Source of the DNA: Spirochaetota bacterium
GTDB taxonomy: Bacteria > Spirochaetota > UBA4802 > UBA5368
NCBI GenBank assembly: GCA_035477215.1
Contig: DATIKU010000053.1
Span: forward strand, 1 to 64,000
Direction: 5' to 3'
DNA length: 64,000 nt
Below the pieces are notes generated by a model. The model made no database searches and was not told the DNA's origin. It saw nothing but the letters and a program-made list of their open reading frames with translations. The translations under genes were made by a program, and so were the position numbers. Shown in pieces: positions 1,778 to 10,343 of the stretch (its first letter is position 1; the number at the start of each line of letters is the position of its first letter).

Positions 1778-2553
1778 TCCGCGGACGCGCTTTCGTCGGC
1801 ACGGGTGCGGCGCGTTTCGCTGCGCCCGGCGCCGTCCCTCCCGCCGCTGACGCATTCCACGATTGTCGCGATTCCCATGGTATGGTGAGTGTGCGCGCAG
1901 GCGAAGCCGTGCGCGGCGAAGCGCGCCTCGATCAATTCCGGATCGATGAAGGTTTGAATCGTCTTCGAGAGATAGCGGTACGCAGTGAGCCTTCCCGACA
2001 CCGCCCAGCCCACGACCGGAAGCACCCGTTTCAGATAGAGGTGATGCAGGCCTGCCATGAGCCGCCGCTGTGGGCGCGTGAGCTCGAGTATGAGGAGCGT
2101 CCCGTGGTTTTTCAAAACGCGCTTCGTCTCGCGGATGAAGTTGTCCAGGTCCGGGATGTTGCGTATTCCGAAGGCGATGGTGAGCATGTCGAAGGCATTG
2201 TCCTTAAAGGGCAGGCTGCTCGCGTCGGCCACCACGGCGCTGTCGCGGATCGCGCCGCGCTCTATTCCCTTATCGATCATGGCCGGGCAGAAATCGAGCG
2301 AGACCACGCGCGCGCCCCTTCTGGAGAGCGCCTTCGAGAGGTCGCCGGTGCCGCAGCAGAGATCGAGCACGGTTTTTCCGGCGATGTCGCCGAGCGAACG
2401 CACGGCGCTGCGACGCCAGGCCACGTCGATCCCCATGGACAGTATGCGGTTGAGTCGGTCGTAGGCAGGAACAATGGAAGAGAACATGGCGCGGATGAAG
2501 CGCTTCTTCTCCTCGGGGCTCTCGTTGTCGATCTCGTAGCGCAGGCTCACCAT
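1741..2553 (-). CDS. ubiE: Demethylmenaquinone / ubiquinone-type methyltransferase UbiE (MenG)
   Basis: SAM-dependent C-methylation of demethylmenaquinone is the last step of menaquinone synthesis. The SAM-binding motif VLDLCCGTGDLS lies at residues 62-73, and family motifs follow (IAFGIRNIPDLDNF, then LELTRPQ). The start ATG at 2553 shares one base with the mqnC stop (TGATG), so the two genes are translationally coupled. A longer reading frame upstream exists but runs inside mqnC and is rejected. At 270 residues it is somewhat longer than usual (about 230-250) because of a low-complexity C-terminal tail that overlaps the convergent small gene. Role in menaquinone rather than ubiquinone synthesis is inferred from the mqn genes nearby. 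Confidence 0.9.
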   Translation of the reverse strand: MVSLRYEIDNESPEEKKRFIRAMFSSIVPAYDRLNRILSMGIDVAWRRSAVRSLGDIAGKTVLDLCCGTGDLSKALSRRGARVVSLDFCPAMIDKGIERGAIRDSAVVADASSLPFKDNAFDMLTIAFGIRNIPDLDNFIRETKRVLKNHGTLLILELTRPQRRLMAGLHHLYLKRVLPVVGWAVSGRLTAYRYLSKTIQTFIDPELIEARFAAHGFACAHTHHTMGIATIVECVSGGRDGAGRSETRRTRADESASADYSMVQPNRAPL

Positions 2554-3626
2554 CACGCGTAGCTCCTGATAGTCAGATAATCGGAGTCCCGCTGTACCGG
2601 GACCCGTCCCGCGGCGGCGATGACGCGGATCATCCCCTCGCGGTCGGCGGTGGTCTCGACGCCGGTGGCCTTGACCACCACCTCCTCGGTAAGCACGCCC
2701 CCCATGTCGTTCGCGCCCATGGCGAGCGCGATCTGGGCCAGTCTGTGCCCCTCGGTGAGCCATCCAGCCTGGATAAAGCGTATGTTGTCAAGATAGATTC
2801 GCGCCACCGCCACCACCTTCAGGTAGTCGACGCCGGTGGCGGGTGCCGTGTCGGCCATGCGGGTGCGCGCCGGCGAAAAGCTCCAGGGGATGAAGGCGCG
2901 CAGTATGCCCGTTTCGTCCTGCACGCCGCGCACCACGTCCAGGTGCTCGACGCGCTCTCCGAGCGTTTCGCCGAGCCCGTAGGTCATGGTGGCCGAGGAC
3001 TTGAGGCCCGCCGCGGCGAGCGTACGCATCACGCCCACCCATTCGTCCTTCGTGAGCTTGTTCGGGCTGACCAGCCGGCGCACGCGGTCCACCAGCATGT
3101 CGGAGGCGCCAGGCATCGAATCGAGCCCGGCTTCCTTCAGCGCGGCGATGACTTCGGCGATGGAGATGCCCTCGCGGCGTGCCAGGTGCACCGTTTCGGC
3201 GGGCGAGAAGCTGTGCAGATACATGGAAGGGAAGCGCGCCTTTACGGCGCGGAGCATGGCGCGGCACTCGTCCAGGCCGAACTCGGGGTCGAGCCCCCCC
3301 TGCAGCATGACCTGTGTGCCGCCGGCGCGGGCGAGCTCGTCGACCTTGCCCAGCACCTCGTCGATCGTCATGCGATAGGGCTCGATAAGCCCCGCGCGCG
3401 CGTGGTAGGCGCAGAAGGCGCAGGCCGCGGTGCAGACATTGGTGAAGTTGATTATGCGGTCCACGATGAAGCCCACCTCGTCCGAGGGATGGACCATCCT
3501 CCGCCGCGCGTCGGCGAGAAGGCCGAGCGCGGCCAGGTCGTACGAGAAGAGCGCGAGGGCGTCGGAGCGGTCGATCCGCTCGCCGGCGAGGATTTTTTGT
3601 TCGAGGTGGTCTTTGCCCGCGCTCAT
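2553..3626 (-). CDS. mqnC: Cyclic dehypoxanthinylfutalosine synthase (radical SAM), MqnC
   Basis: MqnC cyclises dehypoxanthinylfutalosine in the futalosine menaquinone pathway. The radical SAM cluster motif C-x3-C-x2-C is seen as C65-TAA-C69-AF-C72. MqnC-type features include MLQGGLDPEFGLDE, LHSFSPAE and SSATMTYGLGET. The 357-residue length is normal. ATG at 3626 is chosen over a TTG four codons upstream because GGAAGG precedes it and a good promoter ends just upstream. It forms an operon with ubiE. The paralogue mqnE lies about 7 kb away, separated by the toxin and DGR regions, so the pathway is split in two loci here. Confidence 0.92.
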   Translation of the reverse strand: MSAGKDHLEQKILAGERIDRSDALALFSYDLAALGLLADARRRMVHPSDEVGFIVDRIINFTNVCTAACAFCAYHARAGLIEPYRMTIDEVLGKVDELARAGGTQVMLQGGLDPEFGLDECRAMLRAVKARFPSMYLHSFSPAETVHLARREGISIAEVIAALKEAGLDSMPGASDMLVDRVRRLVSPNKLTKDEWVGVMRTLAAAGLKSSATMTYGLGETLGERVEHLDVVRGVQDETGILRAFIPWSFSPARTRMADTAPATGVDYLKVVAVARIYLDNIRFIQAGWLTEGHRLAQIALAMGANDMGGVLTEEVVVKATGVETTADREGMIRVIAAAGRVPVQRDSDYLTIRSYA

Positions 3627-3646
3627 GGCCTTCCGCAACTTACCAT

Positions 3647-3675
3647 GCGGTATGACGGCGGAGATGGAGTGTCAA
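3647..3675 (-). promoter_or_regulatory. Sigma-70-type promoter for mqnC-ubiE
   Basis: On the minus strand TTGACA (3670-3675) is followed by a 17-base spacer and TACCGC (3647-3652). The -35 is perfect and the -10 is moderate. Transcription would start only about 15 bases before the mqnC ATG at 3626, giving a very short leader. Confidence 0.5.
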
Positions 3676-3728
3676 TAGAAAAACACCGGTGATATACATG
3701 AGGAAACAATGTAGCACATGGAAAGTGC

Positions 3729-3825
3729 GTTACCTAACAAAACGATATAAATTAAATATGTTAGGTAATTTTTCATCTTGACGAATTACCTAACATAATG
3801 TATTTTCAACATATTAGTTAGATAA
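3729..3825. promoter_or_regulatory. Two tandem inverted repeats, probable operator array
   Basis: TTACCTAACA at 3730-3739 pairs with TGTTAGGTAA at 3759-3768. The same left arm recurs exactly at 3786-3795 and pairs imperfectly with AGTTAGATAA at 3816-3825. Arm-to-arm distance is nearly the same in both copies (29 and 30 bases). The third arm lies inside the spacer of a promoter. This is the layout of a repressor-bound, autoregulated toxin-antitoxin promoter. The DNA is much more AT-rich than its surroundings. Confidence 0.7.
3778..3806 (+). promoter_or_regulatory. Promoter of the nucleotidyltransferase toxin-antitoxin pair
   Basis: TTGACG (3778-3783), spacer of 17 bases, TATTTT (3801-3806). 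One arm of the inverted-repeat array (3786-3795) sits between the two boxes, so a bound repressor would exclude RNA polymerase. It drives the gene starting at 3844. Confidence 0.6.
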
Positions 3826-3843
3826 CCGCGATGGGATCGCACC

Positions 3844-4158
3844 ATGAGTATTATTAAAGGAATGTTACAGGAAGAATATGAGCGACTGAAGAGCCTTCTC
3901 GTGAAGTACCAGGCGGAGGTGTCAAAACTTCCGGCGGGTTCAGTGTCCGAGAAACAAATAAAGGGGAACAGGTACGCGTATATCGCACGCAGGCGCAAAT
4001 CAAAGATCGAATTCATCTATATTGGCAGGGCTTCTTCACCGAAAGTGCAGAGCATTCGGGATGAAATTAAGCGAAGAAAGGATTACGAATCCAAAATACG
4101 AATACTGAAAGAAGACATCAAAGAACTGGAGCGCGCCCTCGGTGGAAGAAAGGTTTAA
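3844..4158 (+). CDS. Small helical protein, likely antitoxin partner of the nucleotidyltransferase
   Basis: This is a 104-residue, highly charged protein. Helical segments at both ends (QEEYERLKSLLVKYQAEV and the C-terminal KEDIKELERAL) flank a central beta-like part containing the pattern LPAGSVSEKQIKGNRYAYI and ending FIYIGRASS. Small proteins of this kind, with a G-S-x-S motif and an aromatic IKG-x-x-Y-x-Y stretch, are commonly encoded just before AbiEii/DUF6036-type nucleotidyltransferases; that is recollection, not a search. The downstream enzyme starts at GTG 4142 inside its last codons (17-base overlap), so the two were translated together. Its promoter carries the repeat array. Antitoxin function is inferred from context. 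Confidence 0.6.
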   Translation: MSIIKGMLQEEYERLKSLLVKYQAEVSKLPAGSVSEKQIKGNRYAYIARRRKSKIEFIYIGRASSPKVQSIRDEIKRRKDYESKIRILKEDIKELERALGGRKV

Positions 4159-4825
4159 ACTTTTTGACGCCGTGCTCGAAGCACTGCATAAATCAGGTGC
4201 GCTCGCTTCATTGATCCTTATCGGAAGCTGGTGCCTGCACGTGTACAGGTGTACCTATCCGGATAGCGACGAAATCCCTTCGCTTATTACATCCGACATA
4301 GATTTTCTCGTCCCGTAAACTCAAAAATTCACCAAAATAATCGATGTATCGCATATACTGAAAGATATTGGTTTCGAGATAATCGTCTCCCCCATCAACG
4401 GTTATACAAAATATATTCGCCGCGAGCTCGAAATCGAATTCCTGGTTCCGGAGATCGGGCGCGGCAAGGACGGGCCGAGGGTAATCAAAAATCTTAATAT
4501 CGACGCCCAGGCGCCTCGCTACCTGGACATGCCGCGGGAATATATCGAGTGGATACCGTATCGAGACATCCCTCTCCGCGTCGTCAGCATAGAAGCATAC
4601 ATAGTTCATAAATTTCTTGTAAGTGGAAGAAGGAAAGATCGGAATAAAAGGGAAAAGGATATTACATCGGCCGTACAGTTGCTCGAATATATCAGCAAGC
4701 TGGAGGCAAGAACAAATAAGTTGAAATACATACTTGAATCCCTGCATCCCCGATGGAAAAGAGACGTAATCGACCGGATCAGGGATAATTCACCATCGCT
4801 TTCCTCTATACTGAATCTCCAATAA
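4142..4825 (+). pseudogene. Nucleotidyltransferase (AbiEii/GSLR-like toxin) interrupted by an in-frame TAA
   Basis: A single frame runs from GTG 4142 to TAA 4823-4825 but holds one stop at 4316-4318. Before it, LILIGSWCLHVYR and TSDIDFLVP give the GS-x and D-x-D signature of nucleotidyltransferases. After it the same frame continues with family-like sequence: VSHILKDIGFEI, NGYTKYI, LEIEFLVPE, APRYLDMPREYIEWI, EAYIVHKFL. Nothing else is shifted, so one nonsense change (or a base error) inactivates the gene. The fragment from ATG 4529 alone lacks the active site. The frame overlaps the putative antitoxin by 17 bases. Intact relatives transfer nucleotides to RNA or protein and act as toxins. Confidence 0.8.
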
Positions 4826-4826
4826 A

Positions 4827-5324
4827 CTACGGCTCGAGCCCAACGCCGTCATGGGCCTCGACCTTTCCGGAGACCGGGAACGGGCTGATCGCCGGGCGAT
4901 TGTCCGGCGTAAATATTTCTTTATTCACGATTTTTAAATTTTTGAAGCGCCCACGTCCGGGATTGAGGATATAAATGTTCTCTTTCACCACTGTGGAGGA
5001 GGGAACCTTCAATAACAGCGTCTCACGGGATTCCAGCCATGCCGTGCCGGTTTCCACGGCGAAAGCATGCCGGGGAATGGAACTCCAGTCCCCGGGGAAA
5101 GCGGACCGATCCAGAGTTTTTACGGACGTGCCGAAAACCTCGATCGACAGTATTACGCGGTTGTGCAAATCGCCGATGCATTGACAATGGACGATGGTTT
5201 CAAGAATGGCCAGGGAAATATTCTCCGCCAGGCACACCGCGGGACGCCCCGCCCTGTTCCGGCGACCGCCCGGCGCCGCTGAAGAAGGGGGCTTCCGGAT
5301 TTTTCTTGACGGGAAAAATATCAT
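4827..5324 (-). pseudogene. RES-domain toxin (NAD+ phosphorylase family), degenerate
   Basis: The 165-codon frame shows the RES family pattern: a GGRWN-like site, an A-V-Y-x-A-E-like site followed by SLAILETIVH, then WLESRETLLLKVPSSTVVKEN, a YILNPGR stretch and the terminal FTPDNRP. Intact RES toxins deplete NAD+. Here the expected W of GGRWN is R (GGRRN), and the expected aromatic of the VYxAE site is C (AVCLAE). The first ~15-20 residues of the domain are also replaced by unrelated sequence (MIFFPSRKIRK). No Xre-type antitoxin is adjacent. It converges on the broken nucleotidyltransferase gene. I judge it inactive; the alternative is a divergent active form. Confidence 0.65.
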
Positions 5325-5331
5325 TTATTTT

Positions 5332-5346
5332 CTTTAAACTTTAAAG
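5332..5346. promoter_or_regulatory. Perfect inverted repeat just upstream of the MqsR-like gene
   Basis: CTTTAAA-C-TTTAAAG has 7-base arms (5332-5338, 5340-5346). It lies 10 bases before the presumed CTG start and a few bases downstream of a TTGACG box at 5306-5311. Antitoxins of the MqsA type bind inverted repeats at this place, so this is a candidate operator. The right arm also contains the AAAGGA ribosome-binding sequence. Confidence 0.4.
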
Positions 5347-5355
5347 GAAATAAAA

Positions 5356-5673
5356 CTGGAGAAACTCGGGCCCAACTACTCCTTATCGGATATAAAATCG
5401 CTGGCGGGGGCCGGAAAGTACCTGATAACGACAAGGAAGACAGCGGAACAGGATTTCGGGTTATCGGAGGATGGAATAACGGAGAAGGCGTTGCTTCTTT
5501 CGAACGCCGATTTTTACAAGTCCATGACCTCGCAGAACGACCATACATTATGGCATGACGTGTATCACAAAAGGATTGGGCATGCAGTGGCATATATTAA
5601 TCTGCAGATGGATAACGACAGGGGGTTATCATTTCTTTCGAGGAAAAGTAGCAAGCCGTTTTTAAGCGGATAG
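5356..5673 (+). CDS. mqsR: MqsR-like mRNA interferase toxin with a CTG initiator
   Basis: Product of 105 residues. The core ADFYKSMTSQNDHTLWHDVY matches the MqsR signature (DFYKSMT, then HT-x-W-x-DVY). E. coli MqsR begins M-E-K and has an LSQVKKL segment; here CTG-GAG-AAA leads to the matching LSDIKSLAGAG. The initiator is therefore in register with the E. coli start but reads CTG. No ATG, GTG or TTG in this frame would give the full domain; ATA lies two codons upstream and the first ATG (5491-5493 region is TTG) comes too late. AAAGGA lies 7 bases before CTG. Of three residues implicated in E. coli MqsR catalysis, the DFYK lysine and the beta-strand tyrosine are kept, and the WQDVY glutamine is histidine. 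It cleaves mRNA if active; a weak CTG start may keep expression low. Confidence 0.75.
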   Translation: MEKLGPNYSLSDIKSLAGAGKYLITTRKTAEQDFGLSEDGITEKALLLSNADFYKSMTSQNDHTLWHDVYHKRIGHAVAYINLQMDNDRGLSFLSRKSSKPFLSG

Positions 5674-5743
5674 CGTTCATGACGTAAATTAAACGCTTTT
5701 CCACGGCGAAGACGGTTTTTCTCCCGTATTCGGCGGGGGAAAA

Positions 5744-6319
5744 GTGAAATCACACGAGGAAAACCGATTTACTCACGATATAAACAGGGGTTTCAGTCAT
5801 GAAGGAAAAAAATGGGTCGATTGTCCGACATGCGGTTCAAAGGGGACAATAAAGTATGTGCGCAACAGAAAGGAAGTCGTTGAACCTCAAGGATACGGGA
5901 AAATAATCGTTAAGAACCTGGACGGATATTTCTGTTCGGCGTGCGGAGACGGTTTCTACACGCGAAAATCGATGAATCTCTTCAACTCGGCCGTAGCCTA
6001 TGGGAAGGCAAGGCAGGATTCGCATAGAGTCGTCGTCGGCGATTTGCTGGAAGTCAGTTCGGTGGCCGGGAGGCTGGATGTCACAAGTCAGCGAGTACAT
6101 CAAATGATGAAGGAAGGGAAACTGCACTACGTGATCGTAGGCAAGTACAGAATCCCCACCCGGCGCAATGAAAAAATATTCCCCGGTTTGAGAAAGAAAA
6201 TCCATGAAAATTCAAAGCATCGTCATTCCGTACATAGGAATAAGCGCGCGGTGTGGTTTAAAACAGGCGGGGAGCCATTGGCGTCTCCGCCCCCCCGGCG
6301 TTCATTCCGCTCCACGTAG
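5744..6319 (+). CDS. MqsA-like antitoxin with YgiT-type zinc finger and excisionase-like HTH
   Basis: GTG start at 5744, preceded by GGGGGAAAA. The N-terminal half has two cysteine pairs, C27-x2-C30 (VDCPTCGSK) and C64-x2-C67 (FCSACGDGFYTRKS), typical of YgiT/MqsA toxin-binding zinc domains. E. coli MqsA carries an Xre-type helix-turn-helix. Here the C-terminal part (VSSVAGRLDVTSQRVHQMMK, then YVIVGKYRIPTRR) resembles MerR/excisionase-type DNA-binding domains instead. The last ~45 residues are low-complexity, and the true stop may have been lost. It follows mqsR by 70 bases, so the order toxin-antitoxin is as in E. coli mqsRA. Expected role: bind and silence MqsR and repress the operon. Confidence 0.75.
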   Translation: MKSHEENRFTHDINRGFSHEGKKWVDCPTCGSKGTIKYVRNRKEVVEPQGYGKIIVKNLDGYFCSACGDGFYTRKSMNLFNSAVAYGKARQDSHRVVVGDLLEVSSVAGRLDVTSQRVHQMMKEGKLHYVIVGKYRIPTRRNEKIFPGLRKKIHENSKHRHSVHRNKRAVWFKTGGEPLASPPPRRSFRST

Positions 6320-6358
6320 CGTCCATGTGTCGCCTCGTAGCGTTCACTCCGCGTCCTC
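6298..6358. repeat. Three imperfect 21-base tandem repeats
   Basis: Units begin at 6298, 6319 and 6340, each starting GCGT(T/C)CA. They lie between the MqsA-like gene and the DGR target gene. The third unit is cut short. Function unknown. Confidence 0.45.
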
Positions 6359-6449
6359 TTGCGCTTCAGGCGGCCGCGCGGTATACTGCCGGTCGGTCGT
6401 CTTAGCCCACGGAGGCGCGGCCCCGGCCGCTAATGCAGGAGGACATGCA

Positions 6450-8684
6450 ATGCTTTCCAGAAAAACCGTAGCGCTCCATCACACACATCGCCCGTTCCGC
6501 GCCGTCGTTCCGGCGGCGGTCCTCGCGGCGGTGCTTGCCCTTTCCGCGCCGCCCGCCGGGGGGCAGGAGAAAGCCCTCAAGAAACTCTACATCTCGTCCA
6601 TAACCGCCGACGGCGTGAGCGCGGCGCTGGCGAAGAAGGCGCGCGAGCGGCTTGAGTTCTCGCTCTACGAGCACTTCGGCAAGGAATACCGGGTGCTGAC
6701 CGACGAGGACGTCAAGGTGATGTTCAAGAAGGCCGCCGAGATAATGGCCACGGGCTGCGGCGCCGAGAGCTGCCAGCAGCAGATGGCCGACGCGGTGGAC
6801 TCCGACGAGATTATCTACGGCGAGCTTTCCGCCGAAGGCGCGGCGCTGAAGCTTTCGGCGCGCACGCTGCTTCGTGACCGCAAGACCCTTTCGGTGACAA
6901 AGAAGTCGATGGTGGTGCTCAGCTTCTCGGAGAAAGACATGGATCACTACTGCGGCGAGGCGGCGAGGAAGCTGGTAAATCCGGCGTATGTGGTACAGAA
7001 ACCGCCGAAGGCGGCCTTCGAGGAGGGAATATCCCTCTCGGTGGTGAAGGTCGAGGCGGTGAAGGGGCTGGACATTGGCGTGATGAAGTTTACCGCCGAC
7101 GACGAGACGATCCAGACCATGCTGGGGTATTTGAAGAACCTGGTGCAGGAGGGCGACGACGCCTTCGGGAGCAAAAAATACGACGCCGCGCTCGGTAAAT
7201 ACGCGGCGGTGCTGGAGCGGGTGAGGACGAAGCTTACGGCGGAGCGGCAGGCGAAGATGGCGGACTTCAAGGCCGGGGTGGCGAAGCGCTGCGACACGGC
7301 CTACGCCATGAAATACAAGGGAATGATAGAGGCGCTGGACGCGGAGCTTGAGAAGGGCGGGACGGCGGGCGAGAAGGCGCTTTTGGATCTGCGCGGGCGC
7401 TACGGGAAGGTGGAGGCCGAGGCGGAGCGGACGCCGGGCGGGCTGAGGGGCGAGGGCATGGCGGAGATATCGTCGACGCTTTCGAAGCGGCACGACAATC
7501 TTTCGGCGGCGCTGGCCGCGCTTCGCGAGAAGAAGGGCGACGCGCTTTACGGCGAGTACGGTTTTGTGGCGGCGCTGGCCGAATACAATGCCGCGGCGGG
7601 ATTCGCCGCCGGCGTGCGAGAGGCCGCCATGAAAAACGATCTCGTCGCGCGCTACGCTGACAAACGGAAGGCGGTGCGGGAGACCGGACAGAACTATCTC
7701 CTTTCGCGCGTGCGCGCCCTTGCGGCCCGGGCGGAATTTTTCAATCTTCAGGAAAGAACATCCGACGCGAAGAAGGCGCTGAAGGAGGCGCGCACGCTGA
7801 TCGATGGGGAGCTTGTCATATTCTCCACGGAGACCGTGGTTTCGACGTACAATCCCGTCGCGGCGGTACTGGGGATGGACGCACTTTCGGAGTCGGAGAA
7901 AAAGGATGCGAAGGTCTTTGCCGCTATCAAAGAACAGAAGCGAGTTGAGAAGGCTGAACTGGCCGCCGAAGCCGCTATAAACTTCAAACTGAAGGGCGGC
8001 GGCAAAGAGAAGACTGTTGGTGGCATTGTCTTCGTCTATATCCCCGGCGGGAGCTTCATGATGGGTTCGCCGGAAGGCGAGGGAGGGGATGACGAGCACC
8101 CGCAGCATAGAGTGACGCTGGACGGCTTCTGGATGAGCAAATACGAGGTGACCCAGGCCCAGTACGAGGCGGTGATGGGGAACAACCCGAGTAACTTCGA
8201 GGGCGCCGACAGGCCGGTGGAGAATGTGAGCTGGAACGACGCGACGGAGTTCTGTGCAAGGCTCGCCGCCCGAAGCGGAACGACGGTACGCCTTCCCACC
8301 GAGGCCGAGTGGGAGTACGCCTGCCGCGCCGGCACGGCTGCGCGCTATTACTGGGGTGACGAGATGAACGGCGACTACTGCTGGTATTACGGCAATTCCG
8401 GCAGCGAGACACATCCCGTTGGGGGGAAGAAGCCCAACGCCTGGGGTCTGTACGACATGAGCGGCAACGCGTGGGAATGGTGCCGGGACTGGTATGATGA
8501 GAACTACTACCGGAGCAGCCCTTCGGTGAATCCCCCGGGGCCTGAAAGCGGGCAGTACAGGGTGCTTCGCGGCGGCTCGTGGTCCAGCGGCGTCATCAGC
8601 AACCGCTCGGCGCTTCGTGCCTGGCGCGAGCCCGGCTACAGGGGCGTCGCCTACGGCGGGTTTCGCGTGGTGCTCGCTCCGTGA
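6450..8684 (+). CDS. DGR variable protein: exported protein with C-terminal formylglycine-enzyme (C-type lectin) fold
   Basis: ATG 6450 is chosen because GCAGGAGG precedes it and a signal peptide follows (hydrophobic VVPAAVLAAVLALSAPPAGG, no lipobox cysteine). The protein has 744 residues. An N-terminal domain (about 40-175) has LYISSITADGVSAAL and an acidic helix LTDEDVKVMF; a long charged helical middle runs to about 520. Residues ~525-744 are an FGE-sulfatase/SUMF1 domain (YIPGGSFMMGS, YEVTQAQYEAVMG, RLPTEAEWEYACRAG, GLYDMSGNAWEWCRDWY). The last 40 residues (705-744) are encoded by the VR, a mutated copy of the TR at 9191-9308. Treponema denticola TvpA has the same fold and position. Likely role: surface or periplasmic ligand binding with diversified loops rather than formylglycine synthesis. 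Confidence 0.92.
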   Translation: MLSRKTVALHHTHRPFRAVVPAAVLAAVLALSAPPAGGQEKALKKLYISSITADGVSAALAKKARERLEFSLYEHFGKEYRVLTDEDVKVMFKKAAEIMATGCGAESCQQQMADAVDSDEIIYGELSAEGAALKLSARTLLRDRKTLSVTKKSMVVLSFSEKDMDHYCGEAARKLVNPAYVVQKPPKAAFEEGISLSVVKVEAVKGLDIGVMKFTADDETIQTMLGYLKNLVQEGDDAFGSKKYDAALGKYAAVLERVRTKLTAERQAKMADFKAGVAKRCDTAYAMKYKGMIEALDAELEKGGTAGEKALLDLRGRYGKVEAEAERTPGGLRGEGMAEISSTLSKRHDNLSAALAALREKKGDALYGEYGFVAALAEYNAAAGFAAGVREAAMKNDLVARYADKRKAVRETGQNYLLSRVRALAARAEFFNLQERTSDAKKALKEARTLIDGELVIFSTETVVSTYNPVAAVLGMDALSESEKKDAKVFAAIKEQKRVEKAELAAEAAINFKLKGGGKEKTVGGIVFVYIPGGSFMMGSPEGEGGDDEHPQHRVTLDGFWMSKYEVTQAQYEAVMGNNPSNFEGADRPVENVSWNDATEFCARLAARSGTTVRLPTEAEWEYACRAGTAARYYWGDEMNGDYCWYYGNSGSETHPVGGKKPNAWGLYDMSGNAWEWCRDWYDENYYRSSPSVNPPGPESGQYRVLRGGSWSSGVISNRSALRAWREPGYRGVAYGGFRVVLAP
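8561..8681 (+). repeat. DGR variable repeat (VR)
   Basis: These 121 bases encode residues 705-744 of the target protein. The first 20 matching bases (from 8563) and the last 24 (8658-8681, GC-rich, with the TGGTGCTCGCTCCG end acting as the likely initiation-of-mutagenic-homing site) are identical to the TR. Between them, by hand alignment, about 26 of 33 template adenines are replaced. Only two non-adenine bases differ, and the VR carries one extra codon in the AAC-rich part. Invariant codons include R719-S-A, P728-G and G737-F-R. Confidence 0.93.
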
Positions 8685-8754
8685 GACATAATTGTATATA
8701 ACGACACAACGGGCGATTACAGGAGAAACGGGATGAGGACCACTGGACAACCGG

Positions 8755-8781
8755 CGCACCGGGCCACCGGAACGGGGTGCG
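8755..8781. other. Possible hairpin downstream of the VR
   Basis: CGCACC (8755-8760) pairs with GGTGCG (8776-8781), with a shorter CCGG/CCGG pairing inside. Some DGRs need a hairpin just after the VR for target recognition, but those sit within a few bases of it; this one is 73 bases away. It may equally be chance in GC-rich DNA. Confidence 0.3.
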
Positions 8782-8808
8782 GAGGCGGAGCCCCTGCTCG
8801 CGATTAAA

Positions 8809-9150
8809 ATGAGCGAGCTGGTTCCTTTCCAGAAATCGTACGATTTCCTGGTCTGGATGTTCAACAAGACCGACGGTTTTCCGAAGTCGAAACGCTTTTC
8901 GATAGGCCAGAGGCTTGAGAACGCCCTTCTTGATCATATTTCTCTTGTGTATCGCTTTAAGTATTCGAAAAACCGCGAAAAGACGTTATTTGTACTGTCG
9001 GCAAAGTTTGATGAAATAAAATTGTTACTTAAAATCTGCTATGATTCCAGACTTATCGCGAAGAACAGCTTCGCTTTCGCGATGAAACAGTGTGATGAGA
9101 TAGGGGCCCTAATCGGGGGGTTGATAAAATCTCTCGAAAGACACAGGTAA
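8809..9150 (+). CDS. avd: DGR accessory variability determinant Avd
   Basis: This 113-residue, mostly helical protein has the Avd pattern: FQKSYDFLVWMFNKTDGFPKSKRF, then SIGQRLENALLDHISLVYR, a basic KYSKNREKT segment, and C-terminal helices (LLLKICYDSRLI, QCDEIGALIGGLIKSL). Avd is a pentameric four-helix-bundle protein that binds the DGR reverse transcriptase and template RNA and is required for adenine-mutagenic cDNA synthesis. The fold is shared with 23S rRNA intervening-sequence proteins; the position between VR and TR decides for Avd. The gene is intact. ATG 8809 has no clear Shine-Dalgarno sequence. The normal next gene, the reverse transcriptase, is missing. Confidence 0.88.
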   Translation: MSELVPFQKSYDFLVWMFNKTDGFPKSKRFSIGQRLENALLDHISLVYRFKYSKNREKTLFVLSAKFDEIKLLLKICYDSRLIAKNSFAFAMKQCDEIGALIGGLIKSLERHR

Positions 9151-9190
9151 AACCCGCCGGGAATGGCGGGCGTACGCGGTCACTCCGAGC

Positions 9191-9308
9191 GATGCTTCGC
9201 GGCGGCTCGTGGAACAACAACGACAACAACAACCGCTCGGCGAATCGTAACAGGAACGAACCCGGCAACGGGAACAACAACAATGGGTTTCGCGTGGTGC
9301 TCGCTCCG
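9191..9308 (+). repeat. DGR template repeat (TR), adenine-rich
   Basis: These 118 bases hold 33 adenines, nearly all in AAC or AAT triplets that fall in the frame of the target gene. Translated in that frame they read RGGSWNNNDNNNRSANRNRN, then EPGN and NNNNGFRVVLAP. Asparagine codons AAC give the widest chemical range when adenines are randomised, the hallmark of a functional DGR template. The TR is 630 bases downstream of the VR at its left edge and begins 41 bases after avd. An open frame passes through it, but it is a template, not a gene. It has one AAC-type codon fewer than the VR. Confidence 0.93.
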
Positions 9309-9539
9309 ATTTCAGCCAATAGGGCCCTTCGATGCCGCGCGCCCATGGATTTGCGGACGTTTGGGGTTCCACATTCCGCGTACGCCCTTCCCGTAAGGGA
9401 TAAATAACAAACGCCCCCGACGCACTCCGGTAGCGCGCGCGAGATCCGGCGCGAATCCCTGCTTCACTCCCTGGTCGATCTCACGCTCCGCTACTCGGGC
9501 GCGGCCCCCCGCCCTTCGAGATGGCGCTTCGCCTGACAC
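9309..9539. other. Short stretch where the DGR reverse transcriptase would be expected; no gene seen
   Basis: Only 231 bases separate the TR from the end of mqnA. No reverse transcriptase motif (such as YxDD or a SQG-type motif) can be read in any frame, and the space is far too short for the usual ~300-residue enzyme. CCCTT(N5)AAGGG at 9386-9400 is a small hairpin that could end transcription. An open minus-strand frame here (75 codons) is arginine- and glycine-rich and unrecognised, and is probably not coding. Confidence 0.6.
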
Positions 9540-10343
9540 TCACCCGTAATACCGGATATCCTCCACCCTTGGGATAAGCCCCATCTCGCCCGCCTGGGAA
9601 TAGAAATATTCCAGCGCGCTTTTCAGTTCGTCGGTGAACTCGAAGCGCAGCAGCCGGTAGTAGGTGTCGATGTCGTAGGCCACGTCGGGGTACTTCGCGC
9701 GCGCCGTGTCGATGAGCGCGCTTCGCTCCGTCTCAAGGCACGCGAGCGAGTTACGGTACGACTCGACCACGCGCTCGATGTCCGCGCGCATGGTCCGCGC
9801 GGCGTTCGCGCCGGCCAGGAACACGGCGAAGACCACCGGGTGGCCGGTCTTGCGCAGCCACAGGTCGCCCAGGTCGTAGGTGTAGGGGATCGGCTCGGCC
9901 TCGTGCATCATGGCCTCGTTGCCGATCACCAGGGCCGCGTCGATATCCGAAAGCGAGGGCCGCGGCGGCGACGGGACGTATTGCGGGCGCAGGCCGTAGT
10001 GCCGCTCGAGCAGCATTTTCAAGAGCACCACCGAGGTCTGAGAGGCGGATGAGAGGCCGAGCCTGCGGCCATCGAGCTCCTCGATCGGCACGCGGCTTAC
10101 CAGCACCACCGAGCGGACATAGCCGATAGAGGAGAGGCAGAAGCCGGGGAGGATGAGCGCGTCGCGAACGTCCGCGTACGCGGCCGAGGAGACCGGGCTC
10201 ATGTCGAGCGCGCCGTCGCGCATCATGGCGTTGAGCGCGCTCGGGTACGCCGGGACGACCTGCACGCCGTCGAGCGGGCGCTTCGTCATCATGTGATGAT
10301 AGAAAGGATAGCAGTTGAGGTAGTTGATGTATCCGAGCTTCAT
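9540..10343 (-). CDS. mqnA: Chorismate dehydratase MqnA
   Basis: MqnA converts chorismate to 3-enolpyruvyl-benzoate, the first futalosine-pathway step. The 267-residue length is normal. Family features include the N-terminal GYINYLNCYPFYHH, the MSPVSSAAYA stretch, SIGYVRSVVLVS, SSASQTSVVLLK and LVIGNEAMM. The fold is that of periplasmic-binding proteins although the enzyme is cytoplasmic. It is last in the minus-strand operon ubiD-ubiA-ubiX-mqnE-mqnA; only 16 bases separate it from mqnE. Its 3' end faces the DGR. Confidence 0.93.
   Translation of the reverse strand: MKLGYINYLNCYPFYHHMMTKRPLDGVQVVPAYPSALNAMMRDGALDMSPVSSAAYADVRDALILPGFCLSSIGYVRSVVLVSRVPIEELDGRRLGLSSASQTSVVLLKMLLERHYGLRPQYVPSPPRPSLSDIDAALVIGNEAMMHEAEPIPYTYDLGDLWLRKTGHPVVFAVFLAGANAARTMRADIERVVESYRNSLACLETERSALIDTARAKYPDVAYDIDTYYRLLRFEFTDELKSALEYFYSQAGEMGLIPRVEDIRYYG

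Follow-up and report, generated by a model that had tools for sequence, protein, structure and literature searches.

The window analysed here is a 64,000-nucleotide stretch corresponding to bases 1-64000 of contig C53 of a Spirochaetota genome, a 62-contig draft of 3.57 Mb that is 95.5% complete and 0.7% contaminated. Within it we detected a DGR cassette that retains its target gene, avd, and TR on the + strand. The target gene (6450..8684, with a start at about 6450 and a stop at 8684; + strand) encodes a protein of about 744 aa with a signal-peptide-like stretch at its N-terminus and a C-terminal domain (aa 529-741) that matches PF03781 (FGE-sulfatase) at an E value of 1e-55. The top Protein Data Bank match of this domain by sequence was, with an E value of 9e-36, variable protein 1 of T. 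denticola (2y3c), and VR (8563..8681, + strand), delimited by an asymmetric TR/VR alignment, sits at the 3' end of the gene in what is predicted to be a C-type-lectin-type fold, as in DGR targets. Downstream of it lies avd (accessory variability determinant; 8809..9150, + strand), an intact ORF of 113 aa that matched PF22296 (60 bits against a cut-off of 40), phrog_3206, annotated as the Avd protein of DGRs (9e-19), and NF033474 (4e-20, with 71.9 bits, slightly under the model cut-off of 80); agreement among these three libraries supports its identity as Avd and would place the cassette in the avd class of DGRs. The source assembly holds no second Avd. Among 393 genomes of the phylum, the nearest Avd (65% identical, the next being 30%) belongs to Spirochaetota bacterium USCA_metabat.64_sub (hereafter G027), a member of a different family. 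The positions of target, VR, avd, and TR proposed in the initial annotation were all borne out by the ORF, the domain matches, and the TR/VR alignment.

TR (9193..9308, + strand) is AAC-rich and in frame with the target, and it differs from VR almost exclusively at template adenines, as is characteristic of DGRs. In the core alignment, 25 of 33 template adenines were changed compared to only 2 of 85 other bases (one-sided Fisher P ~2e-16). An earlier hand alignment had put the count at about 26 of 33, with nearly all other bases kept; the pattern stands at the slightly lower count, and the repeats it matched are real, though it did not report that VR exceeds TR by one codon (3 nt). The adenine changes fall at codon positions 1, 2, and 3 in 11, 13, and 1 cases, respectively, and produced no stop codons in VR, which also shares 24 identical nt with the 3' end of TR, resembling an initiation-of-mutagenic-homing end. 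Both non-A differences trace to changes in TR, since at those sites (AGG and a third-position C) VR has the same bases as the TR of G027; this agreement suggests that TR mutated without later being copied to VR. We considered whether the extra VR codon reflects a loss from TR and dropped this idea because the window TR and the G027 TR are equal in codon number. A gain in VR is the simpler reading and may have come about by slippage on AAC, since 3-nt indels have been proposed to arise when the RT slips on AAC repeats during homing (PMC12875486). Taken together, the non-A differences and the length gap point only weakly to an absence of copying since then, and in a published survey 46% of TR/VR pairs had at least one non-A difference (PMC6642488). 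No second TR or VR was detected in the source genome, where the other matches to a TR query were 14-28 bases long with E values of 0.3 or worse.

No reverse transcriptase (RT) follows TR. As the initial annotation had noted, 231 bp separate TR from mqnA without an RT, and we found no RT remnant inside this interval. Searches of the whole source genome were equally negative: the RVT_1 profile gave 0 matches at E<=0.001 (3 of 14 control genomes matched), a DGR RT from an intact relative gave 0 matches at E<=0.01, and a 13-sequence DGR-RT profile gave 0 matches at E<=10, while the same search found RTs in relatives. The DGR is thus incomplete both at the locus and across the assembled genome, and no RT that could make it a split, trans-acting system was found in the 3.57 Mb of the 95.5%-complete assembly. 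With target, VR, avd, TR, and spacer kept and RT absent, the cassette is a degenerate, RT-less DGR locus in the sense of PMC10907252.

The cassette occupies a strain-variable slot (3617..9538, unstranded), delimited by comparison with four same-genus genomes (G001-G004), with gene names taken from Pfam. On the left it is flanked by mqnC (2553-3638, - strand), a radical SAM gene with a CofH/MqnC C-terminal region, and on the right by mqnA (9540-10343, - strand), a menaquinone biosynthesis gene. The slot is empty in G001, where the flanks (3616 and 9539) abut with only about 12-13 bp between them, and in G002 and G004 it is filled with different genes, including, by eye, sulfatase-like and AraC-like ones (L050, L051, L052). 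Profile and sequence searches found no Avd or DGR RT in any of the four congeners. The space between mqnC and mqnA looks like an insertion hotspot. Several other ORFs share it with the cassette. An MqsR-like toxin ORF (PF15723, 72 bits), for which no ATG, GTG, or TTG start was seen, is followed by an MqsA-like gene with a zinc finger and HTH, and the two (5353-6319) are a probable toxin-antitoxin pair. A RES-domain ORF (4827-5324, - strand; PF08808, 42 bits) has a C-terminal end (...FPVSGKVEAHDGVGLEP) that recurs in an ORF of G002 that is ATPase-like by eye; a 74-bp stretch (4824-4897) is likewise common to the window and the end of a gene in L051, again ATPase-like by eye. This common C-terminal end suggests a fusion or truncation at the slot. 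Rfam yielded 0 matches across 3500-10000.

An intact counterpart of the cassette is found in G027, on contig JAKQCH010000024.1 (10.8 kb; loci L074/L085), in the order target-avd-TR-spacer-RT, with an RT of 345 aa that matches RVT_1 (PF00078) at 76 bits. Only the source genome and G027, among the 393 genomes of the phylum, share this TR 5' end. The two cassettes resemble each other in gene order, in their Avd proteins, in an FGE/C-type-lectin target, and in a homologous spacer, but in G027 the RT comes directly after that spacer, the target carries N-terminal PEGA repeats, and the TR/VR pair has no gap, with 29 of 37 adenines and 0 of 91 other bases changed. At the DNA level the two are similar across 8019-9429 of the window, a span that starts at the FGE domain and takes in avd, TR, and the spacer; its right end, at 9429, corresponds to a point some 50 bp upstream of the G027 RT start. 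Similarity to the congeners resumes at 9539, leaving a junction (9430..9539, unstranded) where the RT gene would be expected to start. Homology to an intact cassette, combined with a break just before the RT, suggests that the window cassette descends from a complete DGR whose RT was lost.

The stretch of 121 bp 3' of TR (9309..9429, + strand) is, by its similarity to G027, the counterpart of the TR-RT spacer (Sp), and it is 79% identical to L085:4859-4973 over 115 bp. Synonymous sites of avd are saturated between the two cassettes (pS 0.84), which suggests that the spacer was constrained through most of the period after the cassettes diverged. Such constraint would be as expected for DGR RNA. 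Greater decay would be expected of a spacer that lost its function long ago, and one this well kept argues for a young loss of RT and for continued use alike. Its predicted RNA fold was no stabler than shuffled sequences (z +1.3 and +0.05), and one helix held in common with G027, with two compensatory pairs, is no more than suggestive, being equalled in 4 of 150 column shuffles. A role for 9309-9545 as a dispersed repeat was rejected, as its matches in the source genome were only 16-26 bp long.

To place the cassette among related elements, we compiled a set of Avd loci out of three sources (the phylum search, GTDB contigs, and IMG/VR) and used an RT profile to look for RTs in them. Of the loci that no contig end truncates, about 40 carried an RT, and the only RT-less one besides the window was on phage contig L105, so the window departs from the normal state. 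The TR/VR pair is unusual as well: the 37 other Avd-type pairs surveyed showed no length difference (0 of 37), leaving the window as the sole gapped pair alongside them, and 26 had no non-A mismatch while 4 had at least two. The L105 locus (6509-7476) encodes a real, full Avd (102 bits) and has a broken TR, of which a short TR-like start (VGGNWNNNT) runs into another gene, and no RT was found in the 13.8 kb of the contig; it is another DGR relic, too distant to help with the window. A further candidate for an RT-less Avd, L093, proved to be a 23S IVP protein (PF05635 at 125.6 bits versus 32 for bAvd) and was rejected.

We suggest that the cassette is a degenerate DGR that lost its RT, most likely one disabled recently and now a relic, a reading to which we assign a probability of roughly 0.7. 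It would have begun as a complete DGR of the Avd type, ordered target(VR)-avd-TR-spacer-RT. While the RT was present, reverse transcription of the TR RNA would have introduced errors at adenines, and the resulting cDNA would have replaced the VR of an exported protein with a C-type-lectin fold. The RT gene would then have been lost through a break that fell a few tens of bases before its start and close to the right-hand end of the strain-variable mqnC-mqnA slot, freezing the last VR and leaving the target to persist as an ordinary fixed protein. The suggestion in the initial annotation that the enzyme was lost recently fits this picture, given the intact cassette known from this lineage and a break positioned immediately before where the RT would start. 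The cassette parts, the A-specific TR/VR pattern, the lack of an RT in the assembly, and the intact sister cassette with the end point of similarity to it are observed; that the element was once active, that a deletion removed the RT, that this happened recently, and that diversification has halted are what we infer. Several observations weigh against it. The RT may sit in the missing ~5% of the 62-contig draft or on an unbinned plasmid or phage; an open and intact target, Avd, and TR with a 79% identical spacer would also be expected of an active element; and two non-A differences are not rare (at least two in 4 of 37 pairs; see PMC6642488), while a 3-nt gap can be produced by slippage (PMC12875486).

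Good preservation of Avd, TR, and spacer would suit a DGR served in trans, in which the TR RNA and the local Avd are used by an RT whose gene lies on a plasmid, a phage, or a chromosomal stretch missing from the assembly, so that VR is still being diversified. The RT-less loci of Thiohalocapsa PB-PSB1 set a precedent (PMC10907252), and the initial annotation had raised a remote enzyme acting in trans, perhaps on several cassettes. Nevertheless, the 95.5%-complete assembly contains neither an RT nor a second cassette, the same-genus genomes G001-G004 have no DGR RT, and the two TR-side non-A differences are unlike the trans-diversified VRs of PB-PSB1, which agree with their TR at every non-A site (PMC10907252); we consider this arrangement unlikely. 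Highly unlikely, in our estimate, is the bolder form in which the Avd-TR-spacer module owes its retention to selection, since an RT encoded on a separate replicon, a plasmid or phage, re-diversifies the target in trans, making for a DGR divided between a host chromosome and a mobile element.

It is also improbable that we are seeing an effect of assembly or of population structure, with some or most cells carrying an intact RT after TR and the draft capturing either a deletion variant or a chimera joined at ~9430. Reads did reveal variants with an intact RT for DGR 3 and DGR 7 of PB-PSB1 (PMC10907252), and the source genome is a fragmented draft. Yet the junction contains no Ns and is away from the contig end, the region 9309-9545 is not repeated in the source genome, and the contig runs on through mqnA and the remaining mqn cluster, collinear with the same-genus genomes, which speaks against an RT hidden in an assembly gap after TR. 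Alternatively, the cassette may have been acquired already broken, as a partial target-avd-TR-spacer copy that was duplicated beside a complete DGR elsewhere and then moved into the slot, which would never have held an RT. Congeners that lack Avd and DGR RT, and whose slot holds other genes or none, are compatible with such an arrival, and partial duplicate DGR loci have been described in PB-PSB1 (PMC10907252), but neither a donor nor a second copy could be traced. We regard this route as extremely unlikely, and its outcome today would be identical to that of a relic formed in place, the sole difference being the site of RT loss.

The window and G027 offer a clean comparison pair, an intact DGR and a homologue missing the RT alone, with the break point located. 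The pair shows what remains after loss of the enzyme, and in this lineage it delimits the DGR RNA stretch 3' of TR to 121 bp that are better conserved than avd synonymous sites. Variation of VR in reads, if seen, would mean that an RT is supplied in trans across replicons; otherwise, the loss of a DGR is documented.

Degenerate DGR loci have been seen before, and a split, trans-acting DGR would not be new either. Thiohalocapsa PB-PSB1 carries RT-less DGR loci, for some of which a complete locus supplies diversification in trans (PMC10907252). Key machinery is missing from DGR loci in both genomes, but the PB-PSB1 genome also encodes complete loci able to act in trans, and neither such a locus nor an RT was found in ours. 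The window differs from RT-less DGR copies already known in that avd, TR, and spacer are kept while no RT was found anywhere in the assembly. The DGR of Treponema denticola (TvpA type) is similar in that its variable protein 1 (2y3c) is the best match to our target domain and in its order target-avd-TR-RT, which the window follows up to the missing RT; the initial annotation had likewise described a DGR of target(VR)-avd-TR order minus its RT, a view that our analysis supports. Some T. denticola isolates have leftover target genes without RT and TR (PMC4891356), whereas the window retains both avd and TR. Finally, the cassette has the avd-TR-spacer order of Bordetella phage BPP-1 (layout per PMC12875486) and the same A-specific difference between TR and VR, though in BPP-1 the RT follows the spacer and the target is a phage tail-fibre protein.
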